This document shows positions 3,401 to 45,710 of a DNA stretch of 64,000 nt, one piece after another; position 1 is the stretch's first letter; each line of letters opens with the position of its first letter. The stretch is from Amphiura filiformis (taxonomy: Eukaryota; Echinodermata; Ophiuroidea; Amphilepidida; Amphiuridae): the NCBI RefSeq assembly GCF_039555335.1, contig NC_092642.1, positions 18,629,208 to 18,693,207 on the forward strand, given 5' to 3'. A model generated the notes under the pieces. It did no database searches. It was not told the origin of the DNA and saw only the letters and a program-made list of their open reading frames with translations. The position numbers and the translations under genes were made by a program.

Positions 3401-6400
3401 GTAATAAAAAGTTAAAATGCTAAAAATGATGTAGGCCGAAAAATTGTGTAATCTTGTCCTAGACACTCAACGATAAACCCCTATCAAGTATGAATAAAAG
3501 ACTGTTCATTTCAATTTATAAACGTTGAGGAAGTTGTGCATTTTGTCAGCACCGATATAATAAAAATTAAAATAACTAACCTGGCCGATTTCAGGATAAA
3601 CCAACATTTATTTTCTCATGCCGCTCGCCCAGGCCTGCATATTATCCCGTCAAGAAACTCAACCCTAGGCCTACCTTTTTCAACATGTAAATATAATTCC
3701 ATAGCGATAAATAGTGAACGTTGCATTGAAGATGAGGATACTTGGATGATACAGATATTAAGCACATGTTAAATGGGGGTATGGGGATGTCCCAGTTTGT
3801 TTTACAAGGGCAATTATTATTTGACCCAAACTTTTTGGTGGGTGGGTTCATCATGACCCGAGACAGAACAAGTTTGTATTGGTTAATGGGTCAAGGTCAT
3901 CCAGGGGTCATCTGAGGTCAAATTAGTAAAAACTATCATATGGGCATGAAACTTGATAGGGTAGATTCAATATTTAGAGCCAAATTTGTGGAGGGTAATT
4001 TCGGGGTCACCAAAGGTCAAATTAGTCAAAACTGTCACATCACATTGGCATGATACTTGGTGGGTACAGTCAATATTTAGAGCCAAAATTTTGGAAGGTC
4101 ATTTTGGGGTCACCAGAGGTCATCTGAGGTCAAATTATTAAAAACTGACATATGGGCATGACAATTGGTTAGTACAGTCAACATTTAGAGCCAAATTTTT
4201 GAAGGTCATTTGGGGTCACCAGAGGTCATCTGAGGTCAAATTAGTTAAAACTGTCATATGGGCATGAAACTTGGTTAATACAGTCAACATTTAGAGCCAA
4301 ATTTTTTGAAGGTCATTTCGGGGCGAAAAGAGTCATCTGAGGTCAAATTAGGTTAAACTGTCATATGGGCATGAAACTTGGTTAATACAGTCAACATTTA
4401 GAGCCACATTTTTGAAGGTCATTTCGGGGTCAACATAGGTCATCTGAGGTCAATTAGGTTAAACTGTCATATGGGCATGAAACTTGGTTAATACAGTCAA
4501 CATTTAGAGCCAAATTTGTTGAAGGTAATTTTGAGGTCACCAGAGGTCATCTGAGGTCAAATTAGTTAAAACTGTCATATGGACATGAAACTTGGTTAGT
4601 ACAGTCAACATTTAGAGCCAATTCTTTTAAGGTCATTTCGGTCACCAGAGGTCATTTGAGGTCAAATTAGTTAAAATTGTTATATGGGCATGAAACTTGG
4701 TTAATACAGTGAACATTTAGAGCCAAATTTTTTAAGGTCATTTCGGGGTCACCATATGTCATCCGAGGTCAAATTAGTTAAAACTGTCATATGGATATGA
4801 AACTTGGTAAGTACAGTTTACATTTGAGCCAAATTGTTTGAAGATCATTTGGGGTCACCAGAGGTCATCTGAGGTCAAATTCGTTAAAACTGTCATATGG
4901 GCATGAAACTTGGTTAATACAGTCTACATTTAGAGCCAAATTTTTTGAAGGTCATTTGGGGTCACCAGAGATCATCTGAGGTCAAATTAGTTAAAACTGT
5001 CATATTGGCATGAAACATGGTTAGTACAGTCAACATTTAGAGCCAAATTTTTTGAAGGTCATTTTGGGGTCACCAGAGGTCATATTAGTAAAAACTGTCA
5101 TATGGGCATGAAACTTGGTGGATACAGTCACCATTTAGAGCCATATTTTGGTAAGGTCATTTGGGGTCACCAGGGGTCATCTGAGGTCAAATTAGTAAAA
5201 TGTTGTATTGGCAAGAAACCTCTGTCGAGATTTGATCCCCAAGTCAGGTAAACTTAAAAAATTGGTTTGATTTACACTTATTGATTTCACGTTCAAGTCA
5301 TTAACTGTTTACAAGTTAATATTATATTTGACTATTTTTGGATCCCAAAAGTTTGGTTATGGACCCTATTTTTGGATTTAAGATAAGAGGGTCCATTTGG
5401 AGTTTGGACTCCTTACTTTTTCTACCCCTAATTATGGTCATTTCAAAATATTATTTTATCTGTTTAGTGTTTTGTATTGCATAAATTTCCAAATTGTATG
5501 TAGCAGTTTTCTATAATTGCACAAACAGAAAAAGCTTTTATATATAGACAAGAACAGTGAATGACAGAGAGTAGGTAAATGATATTGGACAGTACGACAC
5601 ACTTGTGTAGTATGAGAAGAGCTTTTACGATTGAGACCCCGAGTCATACTGTTTTTCTATTGGCTAGCCTTCAAGTGTTAAATTGGGTCGAAATTTCAGT
5701 ATGTGTAAATATTTTTTTTCCTTCCTTCCGTCCCAATTTTTTCAGAGCATGTTACCGGAAACATCATTTTATTTTTATTTAGCCTTATTTATATTATGGC
5801 GTAGTAATGTTTTGTGCATTGCCGTCCACGGGATATTATAAAAGAAAATCGATTTTGCCCAAACCTGTATAATAAACACATCAAGGAAATTGGTACTTGA
5901 CTTGATGAATGACTCATCGTGTTGAGCGAATTGATGATGATGATAGCGATTACGTAACGCTATGACACAAGTTTTTGTACATTGAAACGCCTACAATGTT
6001 GTATCGGTAAATAATAATTAATTTAAATGATGTTGCGCACGCCTATGCTATATTCCATGTTTTTGTTTACACCACGCCAAAGAAAGCGTCACATGCGCCC
6101 GTCAGTGAGTGAGGATTGCCAAACCATGATTTGGTAGCCCAATTGGGCGACTTTTGAAGATTTTCCCGACTTTTGACAATTTCCTGTCCCATAGAAACCA
6201 ATGGTTAAGAAAAAATTAGGGCGACTTTTCAACATTGGCTCAGCGACTTCGATCATTTCATGTCCCATAGAAACCAATTGTAAAGAGAAAAATTGGGCGA
6301 CTTTTCGATTATTTGACCCGCAATTCGGGCTGAAATCTTTTGGCAACCCGGGCCGTCACTTCCCTTCAAAGTATCCACTGCTGACAGACGTGTAATTCAT

Positions 6401-11612: not shown

Positions 11613-11968
11613 TGTAACAGTGCAGAATGTTGATGCGGGAGTCTTACTTTTTTATAAGATATTCTTGTTTGGGAAAGTCACAAATTGCCGACTCATCCCG
11701 ATCGATTTTTAGTATCAAAGGATATTTGTTTATGAATAGGGAAGACGACTATAAAACCCAGGTGTGGGATAAATATTTCTCTCACTCTCTCACTCAAACT
11801 CATTGGGCCAACACAGATTATTTGTTGCTCCGTATTCAGTTATCATTTATGTATTTTGATGTTATGGAGGATGAAGATAAATAAATCACTACCAAACCAA
11901 ATACCTGTTTATCCAGAACTTTTATTTAAACCAGTGGCCTACCGCAGCATCTATATTTATTTATATCA
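11613..11968 (+). repeat. Upstream (5') LTR
   Basis: It starts TGTAACAG. It contains a TATAAAA box (ACTATAAAACCCAGG) and an AATAAA signal (GATAAATAAATC), in the order expected of U3-R-U5. Confidence 0.75.
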
Positions 11969-15421: not shown

Positions 15422-15785
15422 TGTAACAGTGCAGAATGTTGATGTGGGAGTCTTACTTTTTTATAAGATATTCTTGTTTGGGAAAGTCACAAATTGCCGA
15501 CTCATCCCGATCGATTTTTAGTATCAAAGGATATTTGTTTATGAATAGGGAAGACGACTATAAAACCCAGGTGTGGGATAAATCTTTCTCTCACTCTCTC
15601 ACTCAAACTCATTGGGCCAACACAGATTATTTGTTGCTCCGTATTCAGTTATCATTTATGTATTTTGATGTTATGGAGGATGAAGATAAATAAATCACTA
15701 CCAAACCAAATACCTGTTTAAAATAAATCCAGAACTTTTATTTAAACCAGTGGCCTACCGCAGCATCTTTATTTATTTTATATCA
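15422..15785 (+). repeat. Downstream (3') LTR
   Basis: Direct copy of the upstream repeat. Differences seen: CGGG versus TGGG early on, ATATTTC versus ATCTTTC, and an extra AAATAA-type insertion before CCAGAAC. It is preceded by a purine-rich tract. Confidence 0.75.
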
Positions 15786-17451: not shown

Positions 17452-20400
17452 GTAATTCAGTTGAAGTGAAGGCAGCTGCCTGTCACTCAGAATAAAAGTT
17501 AATTTTAAGCTTATTGACATGATTGACTTATCATCATGTTGACTTATCATATTATTGATTATCATATTTAAAGAAATTAATTCGACACATTTATCCTTAC
17601 TTGAGAACACTAGCTTCCAATTTGAACACAATAATGCATTTGATGCTAATACGTTGTCGTTGATTTTTTTTCAGGCGGACAGCGTTAAACAAATTTTTGC
17701 AACAGATCAGGTTTTTTGGAATTTTTTAATGAAAGTTTTTTCCATGGGTCAGCTGTATCTTTTCGCTTTTGAGTAAAATTTGCCTATTTTTAACAGTCTA
17801 AAATTTTGTTGAAGTGCATTTAAGCAACATTTTTGAAGCGATCGCCCATCTTGATCGGCTGTGTTTACTTCTGAACTTCCATTGCTTTACACAGTGTCAT
17901 GCTTCAGCGAATCCGAATAGATTTTGAATGCAATGGTCTCTACTCTAGTCTTAGCTCTAGCCTTGAATCTGAAGCTATCAGTGATTCATTGTACTGGGCC
18001 CTTCGACATGCTGCGGTAGATTGGCGTCTGTTTCGCAAATAAATTTGCCTTCTTCATCAGCCCATAGAATATGATTGATCAACACCTACATCATGTCTAA
18101 TATTTATATAAAAATTTCAAAATAAAAGTGATGTAGTTGTAGAGTCCCCCCCAATCCACTTTAAAAGTTTGGGTGATTTTTTGGCTTTTGGGCGACATTT
18201 CACTGCTATTACCAGCGACTTGGGATAAAAAGTTTTGGCAGCCCTGGTTGGAGTGACGTTAGTCACATCACAAAAATTCACACCATGTAAACAGTGTGAA
18301 ACGAAATGTGGAAAGTCTGAAAAAAAAACATAAAATTATACAATTTGAAGCTAATAATATATATCAAGACATCCATATGCGGATAGTTTGCCGGAGTGCC
18401 TGAAGATCACATATTGGACTACATTAGCGTAAGTAGTGGTTTAGAGAAAGAAGAATTTTAAGTTTTCGGCAACCGGTAATCATGTGGTAATGGCCACAAT
18501 AATAATCAGATAATGGCATAATGTTAATAAAGATTACTGAGTTACAGTTACTGGAACTAACTAACGCCAAGCTAATGCAGAACACACTGAAGCTAGTGCC
18601 ACTGACTGGAGGTAGATACTATATAGCTGTAATTTTGATAAAAGCTAACTCACTGAGTCTGAGATTCAAATTTTGTCGTCTTTTAGTATTCAATGGAATG
18701 TTGTGTGTTGTAGCGCTATAAAGGTATGGGTGCTGTGTCTTAGCTAGCCATCCGTCTGCCCACCATTTGAGACGGGGAGTTTGCTCCTGGGACAGGCAAA
18801 ATTATAATGACTTTGACGTATATGCTACATAATTGTGAAAACTTTATTGATACAGATAAGAACAAGAACCAATTTAATGAGGACAATTTCCATTTGCAAT
18901 TGGTCCAACAGGTTGTTCATTCACACTGGGGCGAGTTTATCACACCAAAGTCTCCAACTTCCTCCAAGGCAATATCAGTTTTAGACATTGAATCACCAGG
19001 ATTGAAGCCAAAAAGTATTGTCATAGAGCCACCTAGACCACATCAGCCTATAGCTCAACAGAAAAACAAGAACCCTCAGCCGTAAGTACACAGTTGATTG
19101 CGAGTTTTCCACTGCCTGCCCACACCACCTCTTTTTATGCCGCATCAGAAAGGCAATTTGCAGATGATTTTTATTTTTTTCTAAATTTGATATTCTCTAA
19201 AAATAAAACAAATACCACCTGCAAACAGTGCACAAAGGTCAATGTATTAGATAATCTGCATAGTATATTGACCTGTCAGGAGCCTTTGAAATTTTGTTGG
19301 TTACCATTAAAAAACATGTGTGTTAATTAATGAATAACTAATATGTGAACGAGTCGGCTCAGCACTCGCCAAAAGAGTGTTCAAGAGATAGAGCCCTGGT
19401 CAGCCACCAAGTACATGTAGACCCATTTAGGCCAAAAAAAAAAAAGGTTTGTCTCAAAGCTCACGAGAAATTTAAAAACAAATGCGAAATGCGATTTTTA
19501 AATTTTTTATTCCCGACTTTTTTTCATGGTATTTTGAGAAAAAAGTCTGATTTTCGCCGATTTTTTCTGGAAAAAACTAAAAATTTTTTTTTTTTTTAAA
19601 TAAAAAACATTTCCGCATTTGTTTTTTGTCAAATCGTGGGATTTTACAAACGCGCGTGCAAGCTTTGAGACGAACCTTTTTTTTTGTTTGGCCTTATGTA
19701 AGACTGTTCAAACCCTCATCTTAGCCAGCCACACCTATCCACCTGGAACAGACAACATTAATGCCTCTTGCAGGTGCTAAATTCTTAAACTAATGCTTGA
19801 ATAAGTTCTGTGAACTCAAAACAATACCAAACTAATAAATCATGATTATAGCAATGGCTATTTGAACTGACTAAACCCTGAGATGTTTTCAGGGTCAAAT
19901 GTTTGACTGGGTGTTTTGGTGAATATGATGGGTCAAATCCTAGCTTAGACCATCCACCTGGGTGCTCATTACAAGAGGAACGCTGCCAAATTTGAATACC
20001 ATACAGCACTTGGAAAGTCCCAAGTTGCTTAACACAATTTATTTTATACTTTACCCGACACAAACTTTGGCCCCTGTTTGCACAACTTTACTATCTTGTG
20101 ATCTTAAAATAGTTAATTGACACTGTTTGGTACTATTTTTTTACGTTTCCAGGTTACCAGCTGAATTATGTCGTCCAGATCAACTCAGTCTGAATACAAT
20201 TCAGCTTTTAAAACAGAACACACGTATCAGATGTGCTATGATGCAGTTCCCAAATGACCCAAGCGTAAGTACAAAGCAACACATTTTAAGAGAATGTCTT
20301 TATATTCCAATCAGAATAATAACACAATTTTTCACACGATTTACCCTGTAAGCAGTCAGGTTAGCTGAATTGGTACGGTTAAACTGCGGTGCATTAGGGT

Positions 20401-23400
20401 TTGGCAATGCGAGTTTCGAGCCCCTGTGCAGTCTTTGTTTGTTTTCGTAAATAATTAAGCTAACTTGAAATTCCCCTGGGCAAGGAACTAATTGCTTGTT
20501 TGTCTCGGTTACCCGTATAAGAACTCTTGGAGCTGATTCTGACTGCAGTGGATTATTGTGGTATGTACATTTGTAGGGAGAGTGCTCCTTAGCTACAAAT
20601 ACCTGATTATTGCTAAATGGTTTATAAGCTGTGTCTTGGGCCACACGGCCCTAATTTGGTAAAACGATCTAACTTGAAATTTGGACATTTTGATATAAAT
20701 CCATATCATGGGTAATGTGTGGGCACCCTTTCCATTGGTGATATCCTCAAATCACCACCATGCTACCAAATAATGAGATTTTTATATTTTCTAAGACATT
20801 AGATCTGTTTAATAATTTATTTTATTCAAAAAGAAAAACGGCAAGTGTTCAAACTTTAAAGCTCTTTTTCTCGAAACAGCGATTTTAATTTCAAGTTAGA
20901 TCATTTTACCAAATCAGGGCCGCACAGTGGTCAGCCAATTCCTGTAAAGTGTACTTAGGCTTAAATAAAAATGTAGATATTTATATAGCGTTTTATGCCG
21001 TAAACAGCCTCAAAGCACTTTACATTTATTCCGCCGTCATTAGAATGTCGGAACCACGTTTGCAGCCTACAAGTGGCGCAGGGTCCATCAGTACAATGAC
21101 TGTGACTACCCCGAATAGCTTCCCATTGCACCTGGGTGGGGTGAGGCAAGCGAGGCAAAGCGCCTTGCCCAAGGGCGCAACACGGTGGTGGGACGGGGAA
21201 TCGAACCCACGCACGTCGAGCAAGCTCTCGGATTATGAGTCCAAGGCCGTAACCACTGAGCCACCGTGCTTGTGGCCTGTGGGCTTATGCCTGTGCATAG
21301 CGCACTATAAATCTGTGCACCTATATTTTGTTAACATTATTGACTGAAATATAAAACTGACATCAGTGGTGTTGCAAGTAAAACTTTGATGAAACATTTT
21401 TTTTAAACCAACAGGTTATAATACTTATTAAAGCCTTATTTCTTCAACTTAACGGTAAAACTGACCTCAATCCATAATGATTGAATTAGCTTTCTAAAAT
21501 GTGACATTTTTGTTGAACTCTTCAGAAATATGATGATAAGAGCAATGTACCCTTGCTGGCCTCACCACCTCCACCAACAAGTGAGATGAAATACTCTGCC
21601 GACATGGATTCCCCAGAAAGGTAAGAAATATGATGATAAGAGTAATGTACCCTTGCTGGCCTCACCACCTCCACCAACAAGTGAGATGAAGTACTCTGTC
21701 GACATGGATTCCCCAGAAAGGTAAGAAATATGATGATAAGAGCAATGTACCCTTGCTGGCCTCACCACCTCCACCAACAAGTGAGATGAAGTACTCTGTC
21801 GACATGGATTCCCCAGAAAGGTAAGAAATATGATGATAAGAGCAATGTACCCTTGCTGGCCTCACCACCTCCACCAACAAGTGAGATGAAGTACTCTGTC
21901 GACATGGATTCCCCAGAAAGGTAAGAAATATGATGATAAGAGCAATGTACCCTTGCTGGCCTCACCACCTCCACCAACAAGTGAGATGAAATACTCTGTC
22001 GACATGGATTCCCCAGAAAGGTAAGAAATATGATGATAAGAGCAATGTACCCTTGCTGGCCTCACCACCTCCACCAACAAGTGAGATGAAATACTCTGCC
22101 GACATGGATTCCCCAGAAAGGTAAGAAATATGATGATAAGAGTAATGTACCCTTGCTGGCCTCACCACCTCCACCAACAAGTGAGATGAAGTACTCTGTC
22201 GACATGGATTCCCCAGAAAGGTAAGAAATATGATGATAAGAGTAATGTACCCTTGCTGGCCTCACCACCTCCACCAACAAGTGAGATGAAGTACTCTGTC
22301 GACATGGATTCCCCAGAAAGGTAAGAAATATGATGATAAGAGCAATGTATCCTTGCTGGCCTCACCACCTCCACCAACAAGTGAGATGAAATACTCTGCC
22401 GACATGGATTCCCCAGAAAGGTAAGAAATATGATGATAAGAGTAATGTACCCTTGCTGGCCTCACCACCTCCACCAACAAGTGAGATGAAGTACTCTGTC
22501 GACATGGATTCCCCAGAAAGGTAAGAAATATGATGATAAGAGCAATGTACCCTTGCTGGCCTCACCACCTCCACCAACAAGTGAGATGAAGTACTCTGCC
22601 GACATGGATTCCCCAGAAAGGTAAGAAATATGATGATAAGAGTAATGTACCCTTGCTGGCCTCACCACCTCCACCAACAAGTGAGATGAAATACTCTGCC
22701 GACATGGATTCCCCAGAAAGGTAAGAAATATGATGATAAGAGCAATGTACCCTTGCTGGCCTCACCACCTCCACCAACAAGTGAGATGAAATACTCTGTC
22801 GACATGGATTCCCCAGAAAGGTAAGAAATATGATGATAAGAGCAATGTACCCTTGCTGGCCTCACCACCTCCACCAACAAGTGAGATGAAGTACTCTGTC
22901 GACATGGATTCCCCAGAAAGGTAAGAAATATGATGATAAGAGCAATGTACCCTTGCTGGCCTCACCACCTCCACCAACAAGTGAGATGAAGTACTCTGTC
23001 GACATGGATTCCCCAGAAAGGTAAGAAATATGATGATAAGAGCAATGTACCCTTGCTGGCCTCACCACCTCCACCAACAAGTGAGATGAAGTACTCTGTC
23101 GACATGGATTCCCCAGAAAGGTAAGAAATATGATGATAAGAGCAATGTACCCTTGCTGGCCTCACCACCTCCACCAACAAGTGAGATGAAGTACTCTGTC
23201 GACATGGATTCCCCAGAAAGGTAAGAAATATGATGATAAGAGCAATGTACCCTTGCTGGCCTCACCACCTCCACCAACAAGTGAGATGAAGTACTCTGTC
23301 GACATGGATTCCCCAGAAAGGTAAGAAATATGATGATAAGAGCAATGTATCCTTGCTGGCCTCACCACCTCCACCAACAAGTGAGATGAAATACTCTGCC

Positions 23401-26400
23401 GACATGGATTCCCCAGAAAGGTAAGAAATATGATGATAAGAGTAATGTACCCTTGCTGGCCTCACCACCTCCACCAACAAGTGAGATGAAGTACTCTGTC
23501 GACATGGATTCCCCAGAAAGGTAAGAAATATGATGATAAGAGCAATGTACCCTTGCTGGCCTCACCACCTCCACCAACAAGTGAGATGAAGTACTCTGCC
23601 GACATGGATTCCCCAGAAAGGTAAGAAATATGATGATAAGAGTAATGTACCCTTGCTGGCATCACCACCTCCACCAACAAGTGAGATGAAATACTCTGCC
23701 GACATGGATTCCCCAGAAAGGTAAGTAATATGATGATAAGAGTAATGTACCCTTGCTGGCCTCACCACCTCCACCAACAAGTGAGATGAAATACTCTGTC
23801 GACATGGATTCCCCAGAAAGGTAAGAAATATGATGATAAGAGCAATGTACCCTTGCTGGCCTCACCACCTCCACCAACAAGTGAGATGAAGTACTCTGTC
23901 GACATGGATTCCCCAGAAAGGTAAGAAATATGATGATAAGAGCAATGTACCCTTGCTGGCCTCACCACCTCCACCAACAAGTGAGATGAAGTACTCTGTC
24001 GACATGGATTCCCCAGAAAGGTAAGAAATATGATGATAAGAGCAATGTACCCTTGCTGGCCTCACCACCTCCACCAACAAGTGAGATGAAGTACTCTGTC
24101 GACATGGATTCCCCAGAAAGGTAAGAAATATGATGATAAGAGCAATGTACCCTTGCTGGCCTCACCACCTCCACCAACAAGTGAGATGAAGTACTCTGTC
24201 GACATGGATTCCCCAGAAAGGTAAGAAATATGATGATAAGAGCAATGTACCCTTGCTGGCCTCACCACCTCCACCAACAAGTGAGATGAAGTACTCTGTC
24301 GACATGGATTCCCCAGAAAGGTAAGAAATATGATGATAAGAGCAATGTACCCTTGCTGGCCTCACCACCTCCACCAACAAGTGAGATGAAGTACTCTGTC
24401 GACATGGATTCCCCAGAAAGGTAAGAAATATGATGATAAGAGCAATGTACCCTTGCTGGCCTCACCACCTCCACCAACAAGTGAGATGAAATACTCTGCC
24501 GACATGGATTCCCCAGAAAGGTAAGAAATATGATGATAAGAGCAATGTACCCTTGCTGGCCTCACCACCTCCACCAACAAGTGAGATGAAATACTCTGCC
24601 GACATGGATTCCCCAGAAAGGTAAGAAATGTGTGTGCATGTGTTTTGAATGTCGTTAAATGAAGGCATACACAAGACTTTTTACATGTGTTGCAGGTGTA
24701 TTTGTGTGAGATGTTTCATCACTATTAATTTTACAATCAAGTATGTGTGCTGTCCCCGGCCCCCAACTCAACACAAAAGTTGATAACCATGAGAGTTACC
24801 AAATTGCGCAGAAAAGGGGCCATTTTTTTACCAGTAGCAAGGACCGCTGAAATTGGCAAAATAGGGGTATTTAATTTGCACTGTCCGTGAAATTTGACAG
24901 TGAAATCAGCAAAATAGGGGTATTTAATTTGCACTGTCCGCTAAATTTGGATAAAAGGGTACTTGAGAAAATCTCAAATTTTATGTCAATATTTAGTGTC
25001 ATTGATAAGGGTATTTGAAATTCTAATCATTGAAAATGGGTGTTTGAAATTCTGGTCATTAAAACTACAAAAAGGGGTTGTTTTTGGCCAAATGTTGTCC
25101 TCGATTTTGCATGGAAAAAGGGGTAATTTGATGAAAAATCATTGCAAAGGGGGCCTTTGAAAGATTTGGTAACTCTCATGGTTGTCAACATTTGTGTTGA
25201 ATTGGGGGCTGGGGTGCTGTCATTTGTCTACTCTCCATAGATGCAGTGTTATAAAAAGTTACAAGTTTATGTTACAAGTGGAACATAAAAAGTCTGTAAG
25301 AAAGTGTCGTAGCATTTTCTCAACAGAAAGCTTCAAGCAACTCATTATTACTTTTAGTACTGTCATTAGTTACAGATGTGTAAAGATTCATCGGGTTTGT
25401 TGATCCTATCAAATAGGCTATTTCAGTTGAAATGCATACACCCCCTATGGAAGATATGACCCTACTCTTCAACACAAGGGGTGTAGATTTCAAATGGAGT
25501 CACCCATTCAGGTAACCCCATTTGAAATTCACACTCCCTGTGTGAGCAATTAAGATCATAGGGTATATTGATTTCAACTGGTATAACCCAATTTTAACCA
25601 AATGTACCATGATGGTTCAACTCTTTTGAGATCAAACTTCATGATACAGTATTATGCTTGACTGATATTAAGCCTTAACACATGTCTGGTTATTACTTTC
25701 TAGCATGGACAAAATTCCACTGACGGATGGCACAGTAGAGATAGATAATTCTGTTGCAAGGCAGCTTGGACGTAGGGCAGTGGGGACTATATGTGCACAC
25801 TCAGGATTTGAATGTAAGTGACAGGTTTCAATAAGGGGCTATTCCAGTTGAAATCCATACACCCCTGGAAGACATGACCTTAATCTCTGGAGTCATCCAT
25901 CAGATAAACCCTAAACTTTCATACTCCCTGTGTGGATGATAAAGTTCATGTCTGCCATAGGGGGTGTATGGATTTCAACTGGCTTAGCCCAATGCTGGAT
26001 GACAAGACCGTACCATCTTGTTATATGTGTTGAAATTTCAGTGAAATAAAGTTCAGATAACTTACCATTTTGGCCCTCAAACACAAATCTTTAAAATGAT
26101 TTATGGCGGTTCAATTAGCTAGTAACTTGCTTTTAAGGGGTACTACACCCTGGCAAATTTTGTGCCTATTTTTGCATTTTCTCAAAAATTATAACACATT
26201 GGTGACAAGTAAGATATGTATATTATAGGGGCAAGCACTGCAACTACTGCACTGAAAATTCAGGCAAGTATTTATTGATCAAATACTGGTTTTCCCTCAT
26301 TTTTGACTGTAACTCCACAACTGTTGTCTGTGCTGAAATTAAATTTCCAGTGCAGTAGTTGTAGTCCTTGCCCCTATAATATATATATCGTACTTGTCAC

Positions 26401-29400
26401 CAATACGCTATAATTTTTGAGATAAATGCAAAAATAGGCCCAAAATTGGCCAGGGGTGTATAGTACCCCCTTAATGCACTTGTAAATGTTGTACCCATGG
26501 ACAAAAGGGTTACAGACAAACTCCAAACAAAATCTCAGTATAAGCCGATGAGGGGCGATCGTTCCATGAAATGCGACAGGCAAAACAGCTACGCAGGTAC
26601 CATGAAGACACACAATGCTCTTTCGCATATACATAAAGGCTCACATATACGCGAAGGCTCACAATGCTGGCGTCATTGATACACACGAACCTTATGAATA
26701 TGCGAGATAATTCACAGCATTCAATGCACAGGGACTTTGACTGTTAGAAAATAGTCTGTATTGGTCTTTGGTTGTACCCTCTTGCAGTTAAAGTGCTCGC
26801 ACAAGTCAAGACAACCTGAATACGTCACTGAAAAATTAAGCTTTCTTAATTGGTATGCAAGCTTTGGCTATGTTGTAGGCTTTTTGCCATGTTGTACAAT
26901 AAGGTATGCCACCCACACTGCCCATTTCCCTCCATGATGAACAATTCTCAAAAGAACCGACCAGATTATGTCAGACAGTAGTGGCTTCCCATATCGGACA
27001 AGCAGACTAGAGCTTTTCAGTGAAGTTACAATATATTTTTGTGTCATTGTTACAGTAATTCAAGAATCAAGCCTGGAGACTTTGACAGATATACTCCATG
27101 AATATGAGACAAAGGTATGCAAACTACTGAGGACTGCAGTGGACAAAGAAGCTATCACGGGATATACAGGTTTTCAAGTAAGGATATTGTCAATATTATG
27201 ATTGCATGTGATCACATCTAATCAACTGTGTCAGTGTTGCCATAGTTAAAGCTCTTTTCCACCCCAATTGGCTGTTTTCTTTCAGAAATCACTAACATCA
27301 CAAAATTTATAGGATCTTGGGTACCTTTTCTTGACAACTTAATTCATTGGACTCTTTGAGATGCATAGGAATGATTTTTACATTTACACCTCAGATTAAA
27401 ATCTTTGCAACATTGCTCATTGTCAGAAAAATATGGTCCAACCATGAAAGACAAGTTGTCTTTCAGATTGTAAATTGTTAACCCTGTGGATGTAGCATAA
27501 CTGTTGTATGGTACATAAACATTCCCAAATTTCAAGAGCTTCAACTTAGTTTGATAATGATAATCATTAGGACTAACAAGCAAACATTAATCTTACAGAA
27601 AGACAGTCAAGAAAAATAGATGTCTGTGTGTCAGAACTCAAACCCATGACCTTTTGTGTTTGAAGATCTCTAAAAATAAAATCCATATGTATGTTACATT
27701 CTTGTTAAACAAAAAGCATGCACATTTTATCATTGTATCAGTCATACTTTCCGCAAAACAATTGGCAATCACCGCATGTTTTTTTCCATCATCCTTCAGA
27801 CACATAATGGGAGTTTTAATAAGAGGGCTAGCTGTGACACAACTTAGGCCAAGAAAAAAAGAATGTATATCTCAGACATCCGCACGCATAGCTATGTGAA
27901 ATCCAATTTGTAAAATGCCTGTTAAAGATAGCATGATTATGGATATTTTGTTTCCTTATTCTTAGGATGTCCTAGCACAAGTGTTTCAAGAAATAGGTGT
28001 TGGAAGCACAGAAAAACTGTACAACTTCTGGAAGACAAGGGTCAAAGATTACAATACAGTGATACAGCATAGAAATGCACAACTCAAGGAACGTATGCAA
28101 TTGAAACGGGTATGTGGTACTGATTGATTAATTGATTTTATTTGGTTCCATATAAAATAGCTTTATAAAAATACAAAATACATACATATATTTAACAAGA
28201 AGTTTAAAATACATTACATAAGACACTTGACAAAATAAGAAATTAAAAGCTATACAATGTGAAGATAAAAATACACTAGGAATCGTGATAACCCATAAAG
28301 CCAGTGTTTCAGGCTTATTTCTACATATTTCGTGGTAGAGACTGGTTAATTCATCCATGTATATATTTTTGTTGTAATGGTGAACCAATTGAGAATGAAT
28401 TTGTTGTTAATTACAGAGCCTGTCTACCAGTAGCATGGGAGAGGACAGCAAGTCACCAAGGTAAGTCAACAGACCAGAGGAGTATTCATTACAAATGACC
28501 ATACAGGGATGTGCCGCAAACAATGGTCTCATTGTCAGTGGTACATCCCTACGCAAACCAAACTTGAGTACTACCCCCAGTCAATAGACTATTGATTCAA
28601 TATGAACAAGAAATGTGCAGTAGCATTAGAAATTAATTATCATTTGTACTTTTACATATAGATGCACAGGGCAGCTACACTACTCAGCAAAATTAAAAGA
28701 TCACACTTAGGCCTAAAAAATTGTTTGATTGGTATAACCTGACTGACCTTAAAAGTAGGCCCAGAATTTCAAGCCAGGAGGGGCAATTTTCCACCCAGTC
28801 AGTACTTTACTGATGATTGATTTATTAATAGTAAAAGGACATGTTGTAAGTTAATTTCATACACTCTTTGATAGCAAGAACCAATCAGAGCAAGCGTTAG
28901 AAAAATCCAAAACATGCATTGATTGTGTCTAATTGCACTCCGCGTACTACGCAAAGTGCTTTCGCACACCGTCACGTAGGATTGATTCAATCTTCGGTGG
29001 GTTGATGCATTTATATTTGGTTCTATTTTCCAACATTTTTCATGTTTTATAGTGACTAGCGGGACACCCGCGCTACGCGCGGGTCCCCGCTAGGTGAGTA
29101 AATGGGAGCGTTCACTAAAACGGAAGGAATTACTGAACAGGTCATTTAAAAGGTAAATTTCATTTATCTGAGTCTGACCCTCGTTAAGCCTAAGTTTCCA
29201 TTTTAGCTTCTTTAGCTTGTGATTTCCCGTTTTCATGTTATTTATTTAGTCCTCAGTTTAATAGCTTTTTTTATTTAAATCATCTAATTTTATTAGATTT
29301 TATTATTCTTTCCTTCTTTAGCCTATTTTATTCCCGTTTTCTTACTGTGAATAACTATAGGCTAACCCACATACTCGTAGGCCTACCTGTTTGTCCTCAT

Positions 29401-32400
29401 TTTGTTTTCTTTTTAAATTACAGTAGGCCTACCTCTTCATGTTGTTTGTACTTTTTAACACACATCTTTTCCCCGTATTTATTACGCCTACGGTCGGTCG
29501 TTCACCCGTATTATCATTCATTGCGCGACTTCGCGCCGCTTACGCCGACATGGCGTAGTGCTGCGTTACATTACGCAGCGCTATCGCTGATAGCTTACGC
29601 GAGCGGCTTGGCATTAGAAACACCCGTACGACGCGCACAGGCTAGCTTGACAACTGACTCCCTTTTTGTTTACCCAGCATAGCAACGTACCACATTTTCA
29701 CTGATTTTGAGGCCAATTCTTGACCGTTTTCAACCAAATAAAGTTTAAACACGTTCCCGTATATTCATCGATCTCCCGTATGAATTTGGCGACATTTGGA
29801 TCGAAACGTGACGGAGCCTTTCCATGATACATAGATACATAGATACATACATAGATAGATACATACAACATTTCCCTATTTATTGTCTCGCCTGAATGTT
29901 CAGGGAGAGACTTAGTAATCACTATGGTGTGTGTGTGTCCGTGTGTGTGTGGGGGTGGGGGTGTGTGCGTGTGTGGGTTCGGAAAAAGCTTGTGAACGCG
30001 TTATCTTGAGAACCGTAAGTGCTATGATGATGAAACTTTATAGGGGGTAGCATGACCAAAGGGTGTCGACCTGATTAGATTTTGAGCGCAAAATATGGTA
30101 ATTAAGTACCTAATTTGCATAATTTATGCGTAATAAGCAAAATACCTTGTGAACAGATTATCTGGAGATCCGTATGGGGTACAGTGACGTAACTTGGGGG
30201 GGAGTAGCGTGGCCAGATGGTCTCGACCTGATTAGATTTTCAGCGCAAAATATGGTAATTAAGTACCTAATTTGCATAATTTATGCGTATTTGATGCGTA
30301 TCAAGCAAAAAACCCTTGTGAACAGCTTATCTGGAGATCCGTATGGGGTACAGTGACGTAACTTGGTGGGGAGTAGCGTGGCCAGATGTTCTCGACCTGA
30401 TTAGATTTTCAGCGCAAAATATGCTAATTAAGTACCTATTTTGCATAATTTATGCGTATTTGATGCGTATCAAGCAAAAAACCCTTGTGAACAGCTTATC
30501 TGGAGATCCGTATGGGGTACAGTGACGTAACTTGGTGGGGAGTAGCGGGGCCAGAGGTTCTCGACCTGATTAGATTTTGAGCGTAAAATATGGTAATTAA
30601 GTACCTAATTTGCATAATATATGCGTAATAAGCAAAATACCTTGTGAACAGATTATCTGGAGATCCGTATGGGGTACAGTGACGTAACTTGGTGGGGAGT
30701 TGCATGGCCAGAGGTACTCGACCTGATTAGAGTTTCATGAGGTCAAAGGTCACATCCAAGGTCAAAGGTCAACTCAGGTCACCAAATCTTTTAATAATTA
30801 ATTTTCAACTGTGCATCACATATCCCAATAACAGCTTGACCGGTCATGTAATTAAGGAAATATGATGACTTTAAGATAGTCGCTTTCTTTGTAAAGTATA
30901 GCAAAGTAGCACTTTCAATGAGTGATAACTCGTAAAGGAAGCATCTTTCTGTTTTGATTTATTTGATGAAATAGTTCTTTGGTATTGCCAAATTTGATTT
31001 TTCAGCGCAACATACTTTATCCAATTTCGTGAGGTCAAAGGTCACATACAAGGTCAAAGGTCAACTGAGGTCACCAAATCTTTTAATAATTAATTTTCAA
31101 CTGTGCATCACATATCCCAATAACAGCTTGATCGGTCATGTAATTAAGGAAATATGACGACTTTAAGATAGTCGCTTTCCATGTTAAGTATAGCAAAGTA
31201 GCACTTTCAATGAGTGATAACTCGTAAAGGAAGCATCTTTCTGTTTTGATTTATTACTTTGATGAAATAGTTCTTTGGTTTTGCCAATTTTTTGGAAGGT
31301 CATCCGAGGTCACTCAGGGGTCATCTGAGGTCAAGTTATTAAAAACTGTCGTATGGGCATGAAACTTGATGGGTACAGTCAACATTTCAAGGCAAATTTT
31401 TGGAAGTTCATTTTGGGGTCACCAGGGGTCATCTGAGGTCAAATTAGTAAAAACTGTCGTATGGGCATGAAACTTGGTGGGTACAGTCATCATTTAAAGC
31501 CAAATATTTGGAAGGTCATTTTGGGGTCACCAGGGGTCATCTGAGGTCAAATTAGTAAAAACTGTCGTATGGACATGAAACTTGGTGGGTACAGTCAACA
31601 TTTCAAACCAAATTTTTGGAAGGTCATTTTGGGGTCATCTGAGGTCAAATTAGTAAAAACTGTTGGATGGACATGAAACTTGGTGGGTACAGTCAACATT
31701 TAAAGCCAAATTTTTGGAAGGTCATTTTGAGGTTACCAGGGGTCATCTGAGGTCAAATTAGTAAAACTGTCGGATGGGCATGAAACTTGGTGGGTACAGT
31801 CAACATTTAAAGCCAAATTTTTGGAAGGTCATGTCGGGGTCACCAGGGGTCATCTGAGGTCAAATTAGTAAGAACTGTCGTATGGTCATGCAACTTGGTG
31901 GGTACAGTCAACATTTAAAACCAAATATTTGGAAGGTAATTTCGGAGTCACCAGGGGTCATCTGAGGACAAATTAGTAAAAACTCGTATGGGCATGAAAC
32001 TTGCTGGGTACAGTCAACATTTAAAGCCAAATTTTTGGAAGGTCATTTCGAGGCCACCAGGGGTCATCTGAGGTCAAATTAGGAAAAACTGTCGTATGGG
32101 CATGAAACTTAGCACGAGGGGTACAGTCAACATTTAGAGCCAAAATTTTAGAAAGTCATTTTAGGGCCACCAGGGGTCATCTGAGGTCATATTAGTAAAA
32201 ACTGTTGCATGGGCATGAAACTTGGTGGGTACAGTTTCCATCGGCCAGATAATCGTGCCCAGCTGATAACCGCCAAATTCATTTACCTCTCTACCAACAG
32301 TTATCGCAAAAGCAGGCGGTCATGAAAGCAGGCGAGACTCGTGGTTCGAGAACCGCCTTGTAGTAAGATAATGTTGTAATAAAAACAGCAAAAATCATGT

Positions 32401-35212
32401 GCTGTTTTTCTTCTCGTGTACGAAATAGGTTAATGAACGCGTATTACTTATTGCACTGATGTTGATGTGTCTAATGCACTCCCCCCTTCGGGGCTCGTGC
32501 ATTAGACGCATCAACATCAGCGCGCATGCATTATTTTGTCTAATATCTATCGCAACAAGTAATATGTGTTCATTAACCTATAAATGTTAGTAATTTGTTC
32601 AACTTGAACTTCTCTACATTAATTCACAGGATGAAAGAAGAACCATTCTCAGACATTCACTTCCCAGAGACCGATCAAGAACATGAACCACCAGTAGAGG
32701 GCGCTAGTGAATCACAATCACAACCATTAGCATTCAGTAACCTGGATCTAGATGAGGCGTCTAGAGCAGCAAGTAATATCCCGGTTGAAGGAGAAGGTCA
32801 ATGGCCTGCATACATCAAAACAGAAGCTCCAGAGGGGGCAGGACAGAATGACGACTCTAGAAATGTCGCTGATTCAGCCGCTAGTGAACATGTAAGCAGG
32901 GTTTCACTATTATAGAGTTTTATTTCCACATTCTTATTTAGAGAAGACCAGACTTTTGTCAGGTATTGGTTCCTCATAGACAATGTTGCACATACTTCCC
33001 CCACCCCCATTCCTTGCACTTTTGGTCTGACTGGCTCATTGTGGCAGCTTGATATTTTTAGTTGACCGCTGGCCCTGGTAAGAACCTGGTTTGGCTCCTA
33101 GATAATAATACTTGTTTAGTTTGGTGGTTATGTCGAAGGTTTGGTTCACAATGTCGGAATATGAAAGGTTCCCTGTGTTGAATCTAATCCTAACCCAAAC
33201 CTTAACAATAACCTTTAACCCTAGCCCTTACCCTAACCTTAAATATGGCCTAACCCTAGCCAACTTTATTTCCTATTCAACATAATGAACCTTATTTCAT
33301 ATTCGTCATAGCAAGCAGTATAGCCATCCTTTGACATAGCCATCCATTGACATAGCGGATGGACACCAGTCTGGTTCCAATGCCAAATAGAGTTAACATG
33401 GGCATGAACTGAGAACATTTTGAACTATTTTTGAGGTACTTTTGCATTAAATTTCATGATACCTATTAGAGTATCCATACAATAATAAAGTGTGATACTT
33501 TCTTATCTGTTAACAGAATGAAGATGAAAGTGCGGGTAGTTTTGTGAGTGAGTCTCCAAGTATTGTTGATATAGATGTGACGTCTCCACCTAAGAACATG
33601 CCATCATCATCACAGGAATTGGCTAGTCCACCACCACCAAAGAAAAAGTAAGGCATTACATTTGTAAATCTATAGTATAATCAGTAGCAAAATAGGCAGG
33701 GCTTATAACAGCATAAATTGATACTGAACAGTGTAGGTGCATTATGAGCACAAGAGATGTGTACTGCATATGATATATAAGTGATGAGTGTCACTTTTAA
33801 TTACGCAAAGCAGTGTGCATATGAAAAGATTACATTTTTATACCAAAATTGACCTAGAAAAGGGGGCCATCATTCTAGATGCTCAGAAACTGTATTATAT
33901 ACATCCCTGTATGACCATAAGGCCAAAAAAAAATATTGTTGTGTTGCCCTCAAGTGGAAAAATGGGAAAGTTGGGTCGGCCGGTCGGATTTCTTTTTCTT
34001 TTTTTTTTTTTTTTTTTTTAACCATCAGATTTTAAAAATCCCCTCAAATATTAAATAATGCTTCTTCAATTAGGGACATTTGTCAATTTTGACTTCTGGA
34101 TACCTGTTAGACATCAATTAAAGACTAGTCTTTCAATATAATATTAATTTTAAGTGAAAAACATTGATTTTTTGAACAAATCTGTAAAAATCATCATTCC
34201 AAAAACAAAAAAACAAAAAATTATGTAATTCCCTGATTTTTCAGGATTTAGGACCGGACGGTTGAGGGCAACACAACAATTTTTTTTTTTGGCCTAATCC
34301 CTGGTAAGAGTTAACAAAGTTTCCAAATGAACACTGAGAGTAGACTCTGTAAAATGTCACAAAAGTTTAACAATCAGTATTTCTTAGGACCTAAGAGGGT
34401 TGTATAATTCAGAGCCAATTGTCTTGAGCCTAGATTGGTGCATACACTCACATAACTGCCTGATAGTGCACCTCTAAACTTGATTATCCGCATATTTCTT
34501 CAATCTTCATGGGTTTAAAATAAAGTTGTGTCAGGATCTACATTTAGAATCAGCACCAGCAATAATGATATAGGAAAGTTGTAAACATAACTGATATTGT
34601 CATATTGTTCAACCTGGTTAAAGCCATATTATAACATTTGCTAAGGAGAACGCCCTCAAAAAAATTTTTAATTCTGGTTTTTACACGATTGTAATGTACT
34701 TTAGTCAATAAAGATACTCTGTAAAAATCAAGACTTTAGGTGCTGTAGTTTTGTCAAAATCCGAGATTTTGAATAAAACGATGGAACCGGCGTTTTATTA
34801 TTACGATGGAAATATTATTCGAATACGTATGCACAGTACGTACACGGCGTGCGAGATACCCATACACACACATCCCGAGGATCGTACCGTATTACAACCG
34901 CGGGAGTAACATGCATGGGCGCTAGTAGTAAATAAAAATTTTCTATGCTTTACCTCACTTGTTCGGCTCACAATTAAAAGGGGACATATTTGACAGTAAA
35001 AGCTAACATTTTATGGAAAATAAATACTAATCTATTTTTACAGAAATGTTATAATATGGCTTTAACTGAGTATACTATCAACACCAATAAATCAGAACAC
35101 CTAACCCAATCCACCTTCTCAGCCTGTTTGTATTGTGTCATTCTGATTAAATATGTACATTATATCTTTTTCTCTTTTCAGGAGGAAAAAATCTGGAGGA
35201 ACCCCATCTTGA
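17398..35212 (+). CDS. SUPT7L: STAGA/SAGA complex 65-kDa subunit gamma (STAF65-gamma), complete gene
   Basis: SUPT7L is a nuclear core subunit of the SAGA/STAGA histone acetyltransferase coactivator; its histone-fold region pairs with another subunit. Coding exons: 17398-17451, 18912-19081, 20153-20264, 21526-21620, 25704-25813, 27056-27177, 27966-28109, 28417-28460, 32630-32891, 33517-33647, 35182-35212. They sum to 1275 nt, 424 codons plus TGA, close to the roughly 414 of the human protein, and every junction phase agrees. Family landmarks in order: HWGEF (about 23), LSLNTIQLLKQN, then the histone-fold block RRAVGTICAHSGFE.. SSLETLTDILHEYE.. LLRTAVDKEA (about 168-220), DVLAQVFQEIGVGS, FWKTRVKDYN, the SUMO-like MKEEPFSD and YIKTE, and a basic tail KKKRKKSGG. 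The first exon is inferred from phase and context. Confidence 0.93.
17660..17985 (+). repeat. Dispersed repeat, copy 1 (second copy at 54815-55112)
   Basis: Shares with 54815-55112 long blocks such as GATCGGCTGTGTTTACTTCT, GAACTTCCATTGCTTTACA and CATGCTTCAGCGAATCCGA. Both copies sit just downstream of a predicted first exon (SUPT7L, METTL25B). Confidence 0.8.
18735..18830 (+). mobile_element. Fragment of the hAT-type MITE seen intact at 37103-37393
   Basis: Matches its left end: CTTAGCTAGCCA, GACGGGGAGTTTG and GGGACAGGCAAAATTA. A further weak copy is at about 19721-19790. Confidence 0.7.
18912..19081 (+). CDS. SUPT7L: SUPT7L exon 2
   Basis: The acceptor is CCAACAG at 18905-18911, with only a weak pyrimidine tract (the exact boundary is the least certain in this gene); donor CC|GTAAGT. 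It encodes VVHSHWGEFI and the proline/lysine-rich segment up to NKNPQP, matching the RYWGEI region of the family. Confidence 0.75.
19429..19693. mobile_element. TIR element with GGCCAAAAAAAA ends
   Basis: The left AGGCCAAAA..GGTTTGTCTCAAAGCTCACG is inverted at the right CGTGCAAGCTTTGAGACGAA..TTTGGCC. A very A/T-rich centre. In SUPT7L intron 2. Confidence 0.8.
20153..20264 (+). CDS. SUPT7L: SUPT7L exon 3
   Basis: Acceptor TTTTTTTACGTTTCCAG; donor AGC|GTAAGT. It encodes LPAELCRPDQLSLNTIQLLK, matching the conserved LTIHTIQL segment. Confidence 0.92.
20351..20647 (+). mobile_element. tRNA-derived SINE
   Basis: A box-like GGTTAGCTGAATTGGTACGG, B box-like GAGTTTCGAGCCC, then the conserved SINE core 'CCCTGGGCAAGGAACTAAT'. 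Its far end is interrupted by the TIR element at 20648-20921. Confidence 0.7.
20648..20921. mobile_element. MITE with GGCCCTAATTTGGTAAAA ends
   Basis: The left GGCCCTAATTTGGTAAAACG..CTAACTTGAAATT is inverted at the right AATTTCAAGTTAG..TTTTACCAAATCAGGGCC, a TIR of about 34 bp with three mismatches. Confidence 0.85.
20972..21270 (-). mobile_element. tRNA-derived SINE (minus strand)
   Basis: On the minus strand: head GCACGGTGGCTCAGTGGTTA (A box), GTGGGTTCGATTCCCC (B box), core CCTTGGGCAAGGCGCTTTG, and tail ending CGCTATATAAATATC, the usual SINE order. Confidence 0.85.
21526..21620 (+). CDS. SUPT7L: SUPT7L exon 4 (first of 31 tandem copies)
   Basis: The only copy with a genuine acceptor (TTGTTGAACTCTTCAG at 21510-21525). 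It is 95 nt, entered in phase 0 and left with AG, encoding KYDDKSNVPLLASPPPPTSE and MKYSADMDSPE. Its donor GTAAG (21621-21625) joins AG to C of exon 5 to give Ser. Reading past this donor meets TAA immediately (AGG TAA), so only copy 1 spliced at its own donor gives the full protein. Confidence 0.88.
21526..24625 (+). repeat. 31-copy, 100-bp minisatellite made of exon 4 plus its 5' splice site
   Basis: Unit = 95-nt exon + GTAAG. Copy n starts at 21526+100(n-1), and there is no indel in 3100 bp. Variable positions: AGC/AGT (silent), GTACCC/GTATCC (P to S; copies 9 and 19), AAA/AAG (silent), GCC/GTC (A to V), one C to A in copy 22, and one A to T at the start of copy 23. Copies 9-18 and 19-28 carry the same ordered variants apart from copies 22 and 23, implying a 10-copy block duplication. 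Copies 2-31 lie in the intron after exon 4, each with a consensus-like donor. Confidence 0.97.
24749..25222. mobile_element. TIR element, 470 bp
   Basis: Ends of about 50 bp are inverted: GGCCCCCAACTCAACACAAA..ACCATGAGAGTTACCAAAT versus ATTTGGTAACTCTCATGG..TTTGTGTTGAATTGGGGGC. The interior has a direct repeat around AAAATAGGGGTATTTAATTT. Confidence 0.85.
25415..25590. mobile_element. MITE-like TIR element, copy 2 of 3
   Basis: GGCTATTTCAGTTGAAATGC at the left versus ATTTCAACTGGTATAACCCA at the right. Confidence 0.8.
25704..25813 (+). CDS. SUPT7L: SUPT7L exon 5
   Basis: Acceptor TTACTTTCTAG; donor AAT|GTAAGTG. It encodes SMDKIPLTDGTVEIDNSVAR and the start of the histone-fold region, GRRAVGTICAHSGFE. 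A MITE begins only 22 bp beyond the exon end. Confidence 0.93.
25836..25991. mobile_element. MITE-like TIR element, copy 3 of 3
   Basis: GGGCTATTCCAGTTGAAATC versus GATTTCAACTGGCTTAGCCC; the best-preserved ends of the three copies. Confidence 0.85.
26135..26473. mobile_element. Foldback element with arms of about 130 bp
   Basis: Left: AGGGGTACTACACCCTGGC.., ATTATAGGGGCAAG.., TGCAACTACTGCACTG; all recur inverted on the right, ending CAGGGGTGTATAGTACCCCC. Loop about 70 nt. In SUPT7L intron 5. Confidence 0.88.
27056..27177 (+). CDS. SUPT7L: SUPT7L exon 6 (histone-fold core)
   Basis: Acceptor GTCATTGTTACAG; donor CAA|GTAAGG. It encodes IQESSLETLTDILHEYE and LLRTAVDKEAITGYTGFQ, the best-conserved part of the family. 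Confidence 0.95.
27966..28109 (+). CDS. SUPT7L: SUPT7L exon 7
   Basis: Acceptor CTTATTCTTAG; donor CGG|GTATGT; exactly 48 codons. It encodes DVLAQVFQEIGVGS and FWKTRVKDYNTVIQHRN. Confidence 0.95.
28417..28460 (+). CDS. SUPT7L: SUPT7L exon 8 (44-nt small exon)
   Basis: Acceptor TTGTTAATTACAG; donor AG|GTAAGT. It encodes SLSTSSMGEDSKSP, and its phases bridge exons 7 and 9. Confidence 0.85.
29050..29090. repeat. GC-rich near-perfect palindrome
   Basis: CTAGCGGGACACCCGCGC, TACG, then CGCGGGTCCCCGCTAG. An isolated GC peak in AT-rich intron. The sequence after it (to about 29690) looks like the body of a repeat that I cannot name. Confidence 0.7.
29985..30735 (+). repeat. Tandem repeat, about 156-169 bp unit, four to five copies
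   Basis: GGAGATCCGTATGGGGTACA recurs near 30165, 30334, 30503 and 30659, with TTAAGTACCTAATTTGCATA in each unit. Preceded by a (GT)n run near 29925-29975. Confidence 0.88.
30736..31296 (+). repeat. Direct duplication, about 290-bp unit, with DR1-like AGGTCA pairs
   Basis: Two copies of a block beginning GAGGTCAAAGGTCACAT and containing TTTTCAACTGTGCATCACAT and AGATAGTCGCTTTC. Perfect AGGTCA-A-AGGTCA pairs are at 30740-30752 and 30759-30771, and again near 31032. Confidence 0.88.
31297..32245 (+). repeat. Half-site satellite, second array, about 9 units
   Basis: Same family as 3885-5200 (CATGAAACTTGGTGGGTACA, GGGTCACCAGGGGTCATCTG, AGGTCAAATTAGTAAAA). Units keep GGGTCA-4-GGGTCA-4-AGGTCA spacing. 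Confidence 0.9.
32426..32582. repeat. Snap-back palindrome, arms about 65 bp
   Basis: TAGGTTAATGAACGCGTATT.. and GATGTTGATGTGTCTAATGC are inverted as GCATTAGACGCATCAACATC.. and TTCATTAACCTA around a CCCCTTCGGGG centre. It ends 47 bp before SUPT7L exon 9, so it lies across the branch-point region of that intron. Confidence 0.85.
32630..32891 (+). CDS. SUPT7L: SUPT7L exon 9
   Basis: Acceptor TTAATTCACAG; donor CAT|GTAAGC. An acidic linker with two SUMO-consensus-like sites (MKEE near its start, IKTE near residue 348); both correspond to IKEE and VKME in the vertebrate protein. Confidence 0.94.
33195..33258 (-). repeat. Short degenerate telomere-like repeat (CCCTAA-type)
   Basis: AACCTTTAACCCTAGCCC, TTACCCTAACCTTA and CTAACCCTAGCC. 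The opposite-strand form TTAGGGTTAGGTTAGGATTA is near 61101. Too short and imperfect to call a true interstitial telomere. Confidence 0.5.
33517..33647 (+). CDS. SUPT7L: SUPT7L exon 10
   Basis: Acceptor TTATCTGTTAACAG; donor AAAAA|GTAAGG. Ser/Pro/acidic: NEDESAGSFVSESPSIVDID then SPPPPKKK. Confidence 0.9.
33921..34294. mobile_element. TIR element with GGCCAAAAAAAAA ends
   Basis: GGCCAAAAAAAAATATTGTT, GTGTTGCCCTCAA versus TTGAGGGCAACACAACAA then TTTTTTTTGGCC. Same end type as 19429-19693 but a different subterminal sequence. In SUPT7L intron 10. Confidence 0.85.
34617..35067. mobile_element. MITE with GTTAAAGCCATATTATAACA ends
   Basis: GTTAAAGCCATATTATAACA versus TGTTATAATATGGCTTTAAC, a near-perfect inversion. 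In SUPT7L intron 10. Confidence 0.9.
35182..35212 (+). CDS. SUPT7L: SUPT7L exon 11 (last codons and stop)
   Basis: Acceptor TTTTTCTCTTTTCAG; codes RKKSGGTPS then TGA, a basic C-terminus like that of the family. A possible AATAAA is at 35667-35672. Confidence 0.88.
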
Positions 35213-44930: not shown

Positions 44931-45479
44931 AGGTTAATAACTGCGCATCGAATTATTTGGAGGGTGAAAAATCTAAACATTTTGCCTTTGGAACCGAGGA
45001 ATATCGTAGCCCGAGGGATATTCCGAGGTCCAAAGCAAAATGTTTAGATTTTTCACAATGCCCGACTATATTACCGATGCAAAGTTATTAACCTCATTCA
45101 TAACTGTCACTTTAATCTCTTCACCTTACAAAATAACACAAAATTTTGCTCAAACGTTTATAAAAATAGATGATTTTTATATCTTCCCTTTCCAAAAATC
45201 GATCAGGCTAAAACATGACGACCAATAACAAAAGTGCGTATCACAATCTGTTCAAATATGGTAGCGCGCAAATCCAAATCGGCAGCCAACGCTGCCAAGC
45301 AGTTTGTTCGACGCACAACAACAACGCAAACGCCGGTCAATTGTAATGCGACATTGGAACAATTACGCATTTTGCGGTCAATTGTGAGATATTAATGACC
45401 TCGATTTGCGTTAGCGTTTTCACAAATAACTAAATGTAATTGGATCGCACACATCGCGTTTATTAATGAGGTTATGAAT
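44931..45479. mobile_element. Foldback element, copy 1
   Basis: AGGTTAATAACTGCGCATCG and AAATCTAAACATTTTGCCTT are inverted within 150 bp as AAAGCAAAATGTTTAGATTT and CGATGCAAAGTTATTAACCT. The rest runs to ATTAATGAGGTTATGAA. A second copy is at 48541-49069. Confidence 0.85.
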
Positions 45480-45504
45480 AGTAGATAGTTACTTCATCAA
45501 TACT

Positions 45505-45710
45505 AGAGCGGTTCTCGGGTTGCGCGGTTTTCGGCATACGCGGTTGGTGTGTAAGGTTGTTGGGTGATGGTATGGTAGTGGTTGTGTTTAGATGTGAGTT
45601 TCTTTTCAGAACCCTGTATGGGCGAAGCCTGGATGGTGGATGGGGAGTGTGGGGTGATTAAAGAAGGAAATAATATGGAAATGTAATAGGCCGCACAGCT
45701 GTGTAATGTT
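45505..45710. repeat. Dispersed repeat with AGAGCGGTTCTCGGG end
   Basis: AGAGCGGTTCTCGGGTTGCG is matched in reverse complement at about 6740-6770 (CCCGAGAACCGCTCTAG). Low information. Confidence 0.5.

Follow-up and report, generated by a model that had tools for sequence, protein, structure and literature searches.

A 64,000-nucleotide stretch of DNA from the ophiuroid Amphiura filiformis (NCBI RefSeq assembly GCF_039555335.1, contig NC_092642.1, positions 18,629,208 to 18,693,207 of the forward strand; hereafter the window) carries a SUPT7L gene in which exon 4, together with the first bases of its 5' splice site, is repeated 31 times in tandem. The array is best read, with a probability of roughly 78%, as an intronized exon minisatellite of the kind known in lancelets as mirages, that is, tandem repeats lying over exon-intron boundaries (PMC3087553, PMC3902484), with the first donor in use and copies 2-31 forming the 5' part of intron 4. 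The first-donor conclusion draws on the reading frame, on missing acceptors and on published analogues, and the splicing it describes is predicted. Most likely, the extra copies sit harmlessly within intron 4, and the array would carry no specific function.

The repeated exon of SUPT7L

The identity of the gene, proposed as SUPT7L in the initial annotation, is borne out by homology. In the PDB, the best match to a 260-residue section of the translation is 9rdk_D, 'STAGA complex 65 subunit gamma' (query residues 13-255; E 7e-32), and the translation also matches Pfam Bromo_TP (E 4e-11) in the histone-fold region, so that similarity to human SUPT7L takes in this region, as in a SUPT7L/STAF65 gamma orthologue. 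The gene model comprises nine coding exons between 18807 and 33650, with 432 open codons and a TAA next in the genome. Its splicing is inferred from frame and homology, and residues are numbered starting with the ATG at 18807. The actual N-terminus could be another, since a candidate ATG at 17398 marks a possible upstream coding exon.

Within this gene, Tandem Repeats Finder (TRF) reports a period of 100 bp, 31.1 copies, 98% matches and 0% indels (score 5981), and a direct scan places 31 head-to-tail copies at 21526 + 100n, each with 0 to 3 differences from copy 1. All 31 plus-strand matches to the unit at up to 20 mismatches per 100 in the window are copies of the array, and the closest minus-strand stretch differs at 55 positions; the TRF score, the 98% matches and the confinement of matches to the array exclude a chance origin. 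The unit is exon 4 (21526-21620, 95 nt) plus GTAAG, as first described, and the claimed spacing, start and copy number likewise stand; the array is not perfect, however, since 6 of the 100 unit positions vary (1, 18, 25, 36, 66 and 74), giving nine distinct copy types, with copies 1, 6, 30 and 31 identical to each other. Searches of Rfam at gathering thresholds and with ARAGORN for tRNA gave 0 matches. A 30-mer taken from the unit likewise had 0 exact matches among viral and 0 among prokaryote contigs, which is expected for animal DNA.

Two hallmarks of a mirage are present: a minisatellite-like tandem repeat (100 bp x 31, 98% matches) and a unit that crosses an exon-intron boundary with its splice signal, exon 4 being followed by the donor AAG/GTAAG in 31/31 copies. 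By these sequence criteria, the array is a mirage.

The splice signals distinguish copy 1 from the rest on the acceptor side. In the 18 bases that precede AG, the eight genuine acceptors of the gene carry 8-13 T among 10-16 pyrimidines, and their -3 base is C or T. For the eight AGs of the unit, as scored on copy 2, the T count in the same span is 2-5. The AG immediately 5' of later copies (GGTAAG/AAATATG) follows 7/18 pyrimidines, and the 25 bases 5' of each later copy contain 0 variable sites. The claim that copy 1 alone has an acceptor holds in the sense that a T-rich acceptor precedes that copy only, with later copies scored on copy 2. The sole AG of the unit with C at -3 (position 91; 11 pyrimidines, 5 T) would leave a frame-breaking 4-nt exon. 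On the donor side, 30/31 copies read AAG/GTAAGA and copy 22 reads AAG/GTAAGT.

The reading frame, with full exons, tolerates the first donor only. Joining the copy 1 donor to exon 5 keeps 432 codons open; with donors 2, 3 and 31, the later donors scored individually, a stop follows after 161 codons at the AGG TAA created by the copy 1 donor, and, because this stop lies 5' of donor 2, it is common to the remaining later donors. The expectation that a later donor would leave an in-frame TAA is confirmed in this way at the copy 1/copy 2 junction, and the truncated product of about 144 residues is not: the model gives 161 residues from the ATG at 18807, and a stop at 143 belongs to the skipping of exon 4. 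A stop farther than 50-55 nt upstream of an exon junction predicts mRNA decay. With donors 2, 3 and 31 the distance from the stop to the exon 4/5 junction is 96, 196 and 2996 nt, so that decay, not a stable truncated protein, is predicted. Of the splice paths tested with full exons, only a single 95-nt exon 4 joined to exon 5 keeps the protein's frame open.

Because copies 2-31 are without a T-rich acceptor, the spliceosome would define the 95-nt exon by pairing the one good acceptor with the donor closest to it, and copies 2-31 would be removed with intron 4, of which they form the initial 3 kb. Selection would tolerate the array because exon 4, whose 95 nt are not a multiple of three, can be doubled only as long as the extra copies stay unspliced.

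Origin, growth and surroundings of the array

The 100-bp period extends two bases before 21526 and four bases past 24625, which places AGAAAT at both outer edges; the match exists because the acceptor AG and the AG of GTAAG both precede the same four bases. The simplest account of the origin would be a tandem duplication via this 6-bp match, with slippage or end-joining at AGAAAT as the putative first event, and such a duplication would explain a unit of exon plus GTAAG without invoking function. Six other exons, tested in small offsets, showed at most five bases of edge match; the value of 19 that exon 4 itself gives in this test is inflated by copy 2.

Subsequent growth may have proceeded by unequal exchange. 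Identical neighbouring copies occur in 12/30 cases, compared with 6.3 expected under shuffled order (p 0.0033), and copies 9-18 agree with copies 19-28 in 8/10 copies and differ from them in 3/1000 bases, the lowest value of 78 block pairs (median 17). This repetition of a 1-kb block is the pattern expected from unequal exchange of 1-kb blocks, and would be indirect evidence of turnover. By analogy, the alike edge copies (1, 30 and 31) and the internal runs of one type appear to fit turnover of the mirage kind. Hairpin-driven expansion was rejected, as the copy 14 unit, folded as single-stranded DNA, is no better than its shuffles (z 0.66 and 0.51 for the two strands).

Several observations weigh against this account of splicing and origin. 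The 31 donors are near-equal in strength, 30/31 being identical and that of copy 22 better by one base, and sequence alone does not force the choice of the first donor. Mirage copies could serve as cryptic splice sites, and one of them may, on a published hypothesis, become a real exon (PMC3087553); in lancelet PGBD5, a gene model once placed an extra exon inside the repeats, an exon that the authors omitted with RNA evidence neither way (PMC3902484). With respect to origin, 6-base matches at a distance of 100 occur at 41/60300 other window positions, and the AGAAAT match is a post-hoc observation. Furthermore, the 1-kb block score, reached by 3/2000 shuffles, was devised after the lag-10 pattern had been noticed.

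Coordinates of the array, the splice features and the SUPT7L coding exons in the window (a slash marks the exon/intron boundary)
Feature	Position	Strand	Basis and remarks
Tandem array, 31 x 100 bp + 6 bp flanking match	21524..24629	+	TRF, direct scan, copy comparison; 9 copy types, indels 0
AGAAAT, acceptor/exon 4 junction, left half of 6-bp direct match	21524..21529	+	sequence
AGAAAT, last donor/intron junction, right half of 6-bp direct match	24624..24629	+	sequence
TAA stop in exon 4 frame, made by copy 1 donor (AGG TAA), read upon later donor use	21622..21624	+	sequence, frame test
Candidate 61-nt intron upstream of copy 2 mini-exon	21621-21681	+	predicted
Candidate 39-nt mini-exon in copy 2, adding SEMKYSVDMDSPE	21682..21720	+	in frame, open; predicted
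Copies 9-18, first 1-kb block	22326..23325	+	block comparison
Second 1-kb block (copies 19-28), differing from the first at 3 bases	23326..24325	+	block comparison
Copy 22 donor, the only one with T at +6 (AAG/GTAAGT)	23721..23726	+	donor comparison
SUPT7L model exon 2, coding from ATG	18807..19081	+	gene model
SUPT7L exon 3	20153..20264	+	gene model
SUPT7L exon 4 = exon part of copy 1	21526..21620	+	phase 0 at entry, phase 2 at exit; acceptor ...aactcttcag, donor AAG/GTAAGA; splicing predicted
SUPT7L exon 5	25704..25813	+	gene model
SUPT7L exon 6, histone-fold region	27056..27177	+	gene model, Pfam
SUPT7L exon 7	27966..28109	+	gene model
SUPT7L exon 8	28417..28460	+	gene model
SUPT7L exon 9	32630..32891	+	gene model
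SUPT7L last exon as modelled, 134 nt up to and into terminal TAA	33517..33650	+	gene model

Other arrays with units of about 100 bp in the window, such as 107 bp x 11.4 and 108 bp x 8.9 with 86-88% matches (TRF), make the region one rich in minisatellites. Minisatellites at 3895-5219, 31283-32235 and 45857-46308 have units of ~107-119 bp with an apparent common core (GGTCATTTGGGGTCACC...), the last of them reversed, and 44695-52283 (~7.6 kb) holds several separate arrays of ~37-bp units (ATAGTTACTTCATCAATACCGATATCAGCAGTAGATT) as well as two of 19-bp units (TRF). In intron 4, just 3' of the exon array, lies a 51-nt inverted repeat (24754-24804 / 25164-25214; arms 92% complementary, with 359 nt between them) that looks like a small inverted-repeat element. 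Elsewhere, the six-frame listing shows near-identical peptides at about 11618-11960 and 15427-15780, ~3.8 kb apart and probably copies of one repeat element. In addition, a 273-aa stop-to-stop frame on the plus strand (61875-62696) is probably an exon of another gene; counted from its first Met, it has 268 residues, which match Pfam Methyltransf_32 (E 4.2e-12).

Alternative readings

Among the three explanations offered at the outset, neutral expansion that survives as the first donor wins is the best supported, because like arrays in lancelets are reported to be compatible with regular splicing (PMC3087553, PMC3902484). The evidence for the other two, a U1 decoy and a regulated truncated product, is the presence of the donors as such, and for the second, as set out above, decay of the mRNA is the predicted outcome.

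A regulatory role is unlikely, even if it comes closest to the neutral account. The 30 extra strong donors would on this view bind U1 and thereby slow or tune the removal of intron 4, or they would prevent premature polyadenylation, or reduce SUPT7L through a poison isoform. The density of potential U1 sites is high, with 31 donor-like sites (at least 7/9 consensus) in the 3.1-kb array versus 11 in 10441 nt of other SUPT7L intron DNA, a count that excluded bases 24626-24725 and a few bases at the intron edges, and any later donor yields a premature stop at least 96 nt upstream of the junction. Published precedents are available for both directions of effect: in one human gene, exon definition can be improved by a U1 site 3' of the donor (PMC5933811), and intron retention can result from a competing donor in a second gene (PMC8706089), so that even the sign of a U1 effect is uncertain. 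The copies are nevertheless too similar (6 variable sites per 100) to reveal selection on the donors, and their intact donors are therefore no evidence of use; moreover, published mirages, those of TnC and Adh, are cited as producing no aberrant mRNA (PMC3902484).

Slightly less probable still is an assembly artefact over a true locus with one or few copies. Lancelet mirages give grounds for caution, as that of BflGb6 was judged aberrantly assembled in the draft genome (PMC3087553) and the copy numbers in PGBD5 varied by assembly version (PMC3902484). The nine copy types in structured order and the 3 differences between 1-kb blocks are, however, unlike a simple one-unit stutter. The exact copy number may nonetheless be wrong.

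Very improbable is a nascent multi-exon repeat, in which each donor would be joined to the AG at unit position 56 of the next copy, a 61-nt intron would be taken out and a 39-nt in-frame mini-exon retained, and the linker would grow by 13 residues per step. Just as remote is its wider form, in which the array would be caught in the course of giving rise to new introns and exons, with a ladder of potential introns, a SAGA subunit that carries a 13-residue repeat of variable number, and isoform length tied to allele length. The arithmetic is permissive: 39 nt is a multiple of three, the frame is open with 1, 2 and 30 cassettes (445, 458 and 822 codons), AG and donor are intact in 30/30 extra copies, and the insertion would fall in a loosely conserved linker that aligns to human SUPT7L with gaps. 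The acceptor has 12/18 pyrimidines, within the genuine range of 10-16, and the hypothesis of a mirage copy turning into a real exon (PMC3087553) would provide a model. Against this, the same acceptor has 2/18 T (genuine 8-13) and A at -3, where the eight genuine acceptors have C or T; the 61-nt intron is short beside the other SUPT7L introns (at least 307 nt in the model); and, as scored in copy 6, 1/5 AGs leaving introns of 61-105 nt is in frame and open, which is near chance, with another AG of the unit, leaving a 22-nt intron, also open in copy 6. Owing to the weak acceptor and the near-chance open frame, this reading is given little weight.

Finally, two forms of coding repeat were rejected: one long coding repeat, for which 0 stop-to-stop frames of at least 120 aa are closed within the array, and exon copies stitched at 95 nt without GTAAG, which meet a stop at 181 (n = 2, 3, 4, 7 and 31).

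Beyond the choice among readings, the array constitutes a natural test of donor choice, with one good acceptor facing 31 near-identical donors at 100-nt steps, and, should alleles vary in copy number, splicing accuracy versus donor number would become directly measurable. It also suggests a simple reason why duplications may start and end at splice sites, namely shared microhomology, which acceptor and donor can possess because both contain AG.

Comparison with known repeats at splice sites

No related paper was found by title for SUPT7L with tandem repeat in the open-licence literature, a result that does not imply absence from print; other searches were made by kind of structure. The portion of the donor-choice review PMC9311317 that was available contains nothing on 'proximal' or 'competing' sites.

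Related phenomena in other animals and plants resemble the array in part. In the earthworm metallothionein clone Lr6F14, duplicated fourth exons are absent from the final transcript (PMC12783039); gene and animal differ, and the available part of that source describes no 100-bp exon-plus-donor array for the clone. Internal tandem repeats in human genes show that exons and introns become longer as minisatellites expand, and that cryptic splice sites can be activated in this way (PMC2812944), but these repeats lie in segmental duplications, with units of ~30 bp and ~4 repeats on average, and the portion of the paper at hand does not mention a repeated whole exon. A related idea is the Rogers model, in which introns are gained via tandem duplication of an AGGT-bearing segment, described in Drosophila (PMC2891723) and for potato RdRp (PMC4974935), with ATP2A1 and fission yeast given by citation as further cases (PMC2891723, PMC4974935). 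As predicted for the SUPT7L array, duplicated exon sequence with splice signals becomes intron and the peptide is left unchanged. The difference is that Rogers-type gain creates a new intron position, whereas in the best reading of the SUPT7L array exon copies extend the 5' part of an intron already present; an intron of the Rogers form, running from the GT to the AG of the next copy, has a frame-compatible 61-nt candidate here with a weak acceptor.

The nearest relatives are the mirages of lancelets, whose repeats, like those of the SUPT7L array, take in exon sequence and a splice site. They have been described in globin genes (BflGb6 and BflGb9) and, by citation, in Adh3 and further loci; many copies carry AG/GT signals, and reverse-transcription PCR suggests regular splicing (PMC3087553), which is reported for Adh, globin and TnC. 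In BflGb6, haplotypes of 6 and 3 units occur, and concerted evolution spares the edges of the cluster (PMC3087553), inner copies being more homogenized than edge copies. PGBD5 has 60-bp and 108-bp repeats, and the first repeat of each length adjoins a 5' splice site (PMC3902484). Lancelet units of 10-72, 60, 108 and 150-160 bp compare with 100 bp in SUPT7L, a gene absent among the mirage genes named in the available parts of PMC3087553 and PMC3902484. Among mirages for which these sources give copy numbers, BflGb6 has 3 and 6 and PGBD5 has 2-7 and 3-6, depending on the assembly, against 31 in SUPT7L, where the unit takes in an entire exon and runs from the acceptor AG to GTAAG. Altogether, the kind of structure appears to be one already known from lancelets, and the SUPT7L array would stand apart within it as larger than the mirages with stated copy numbers and as one in which the repeated unit is a whole exon.

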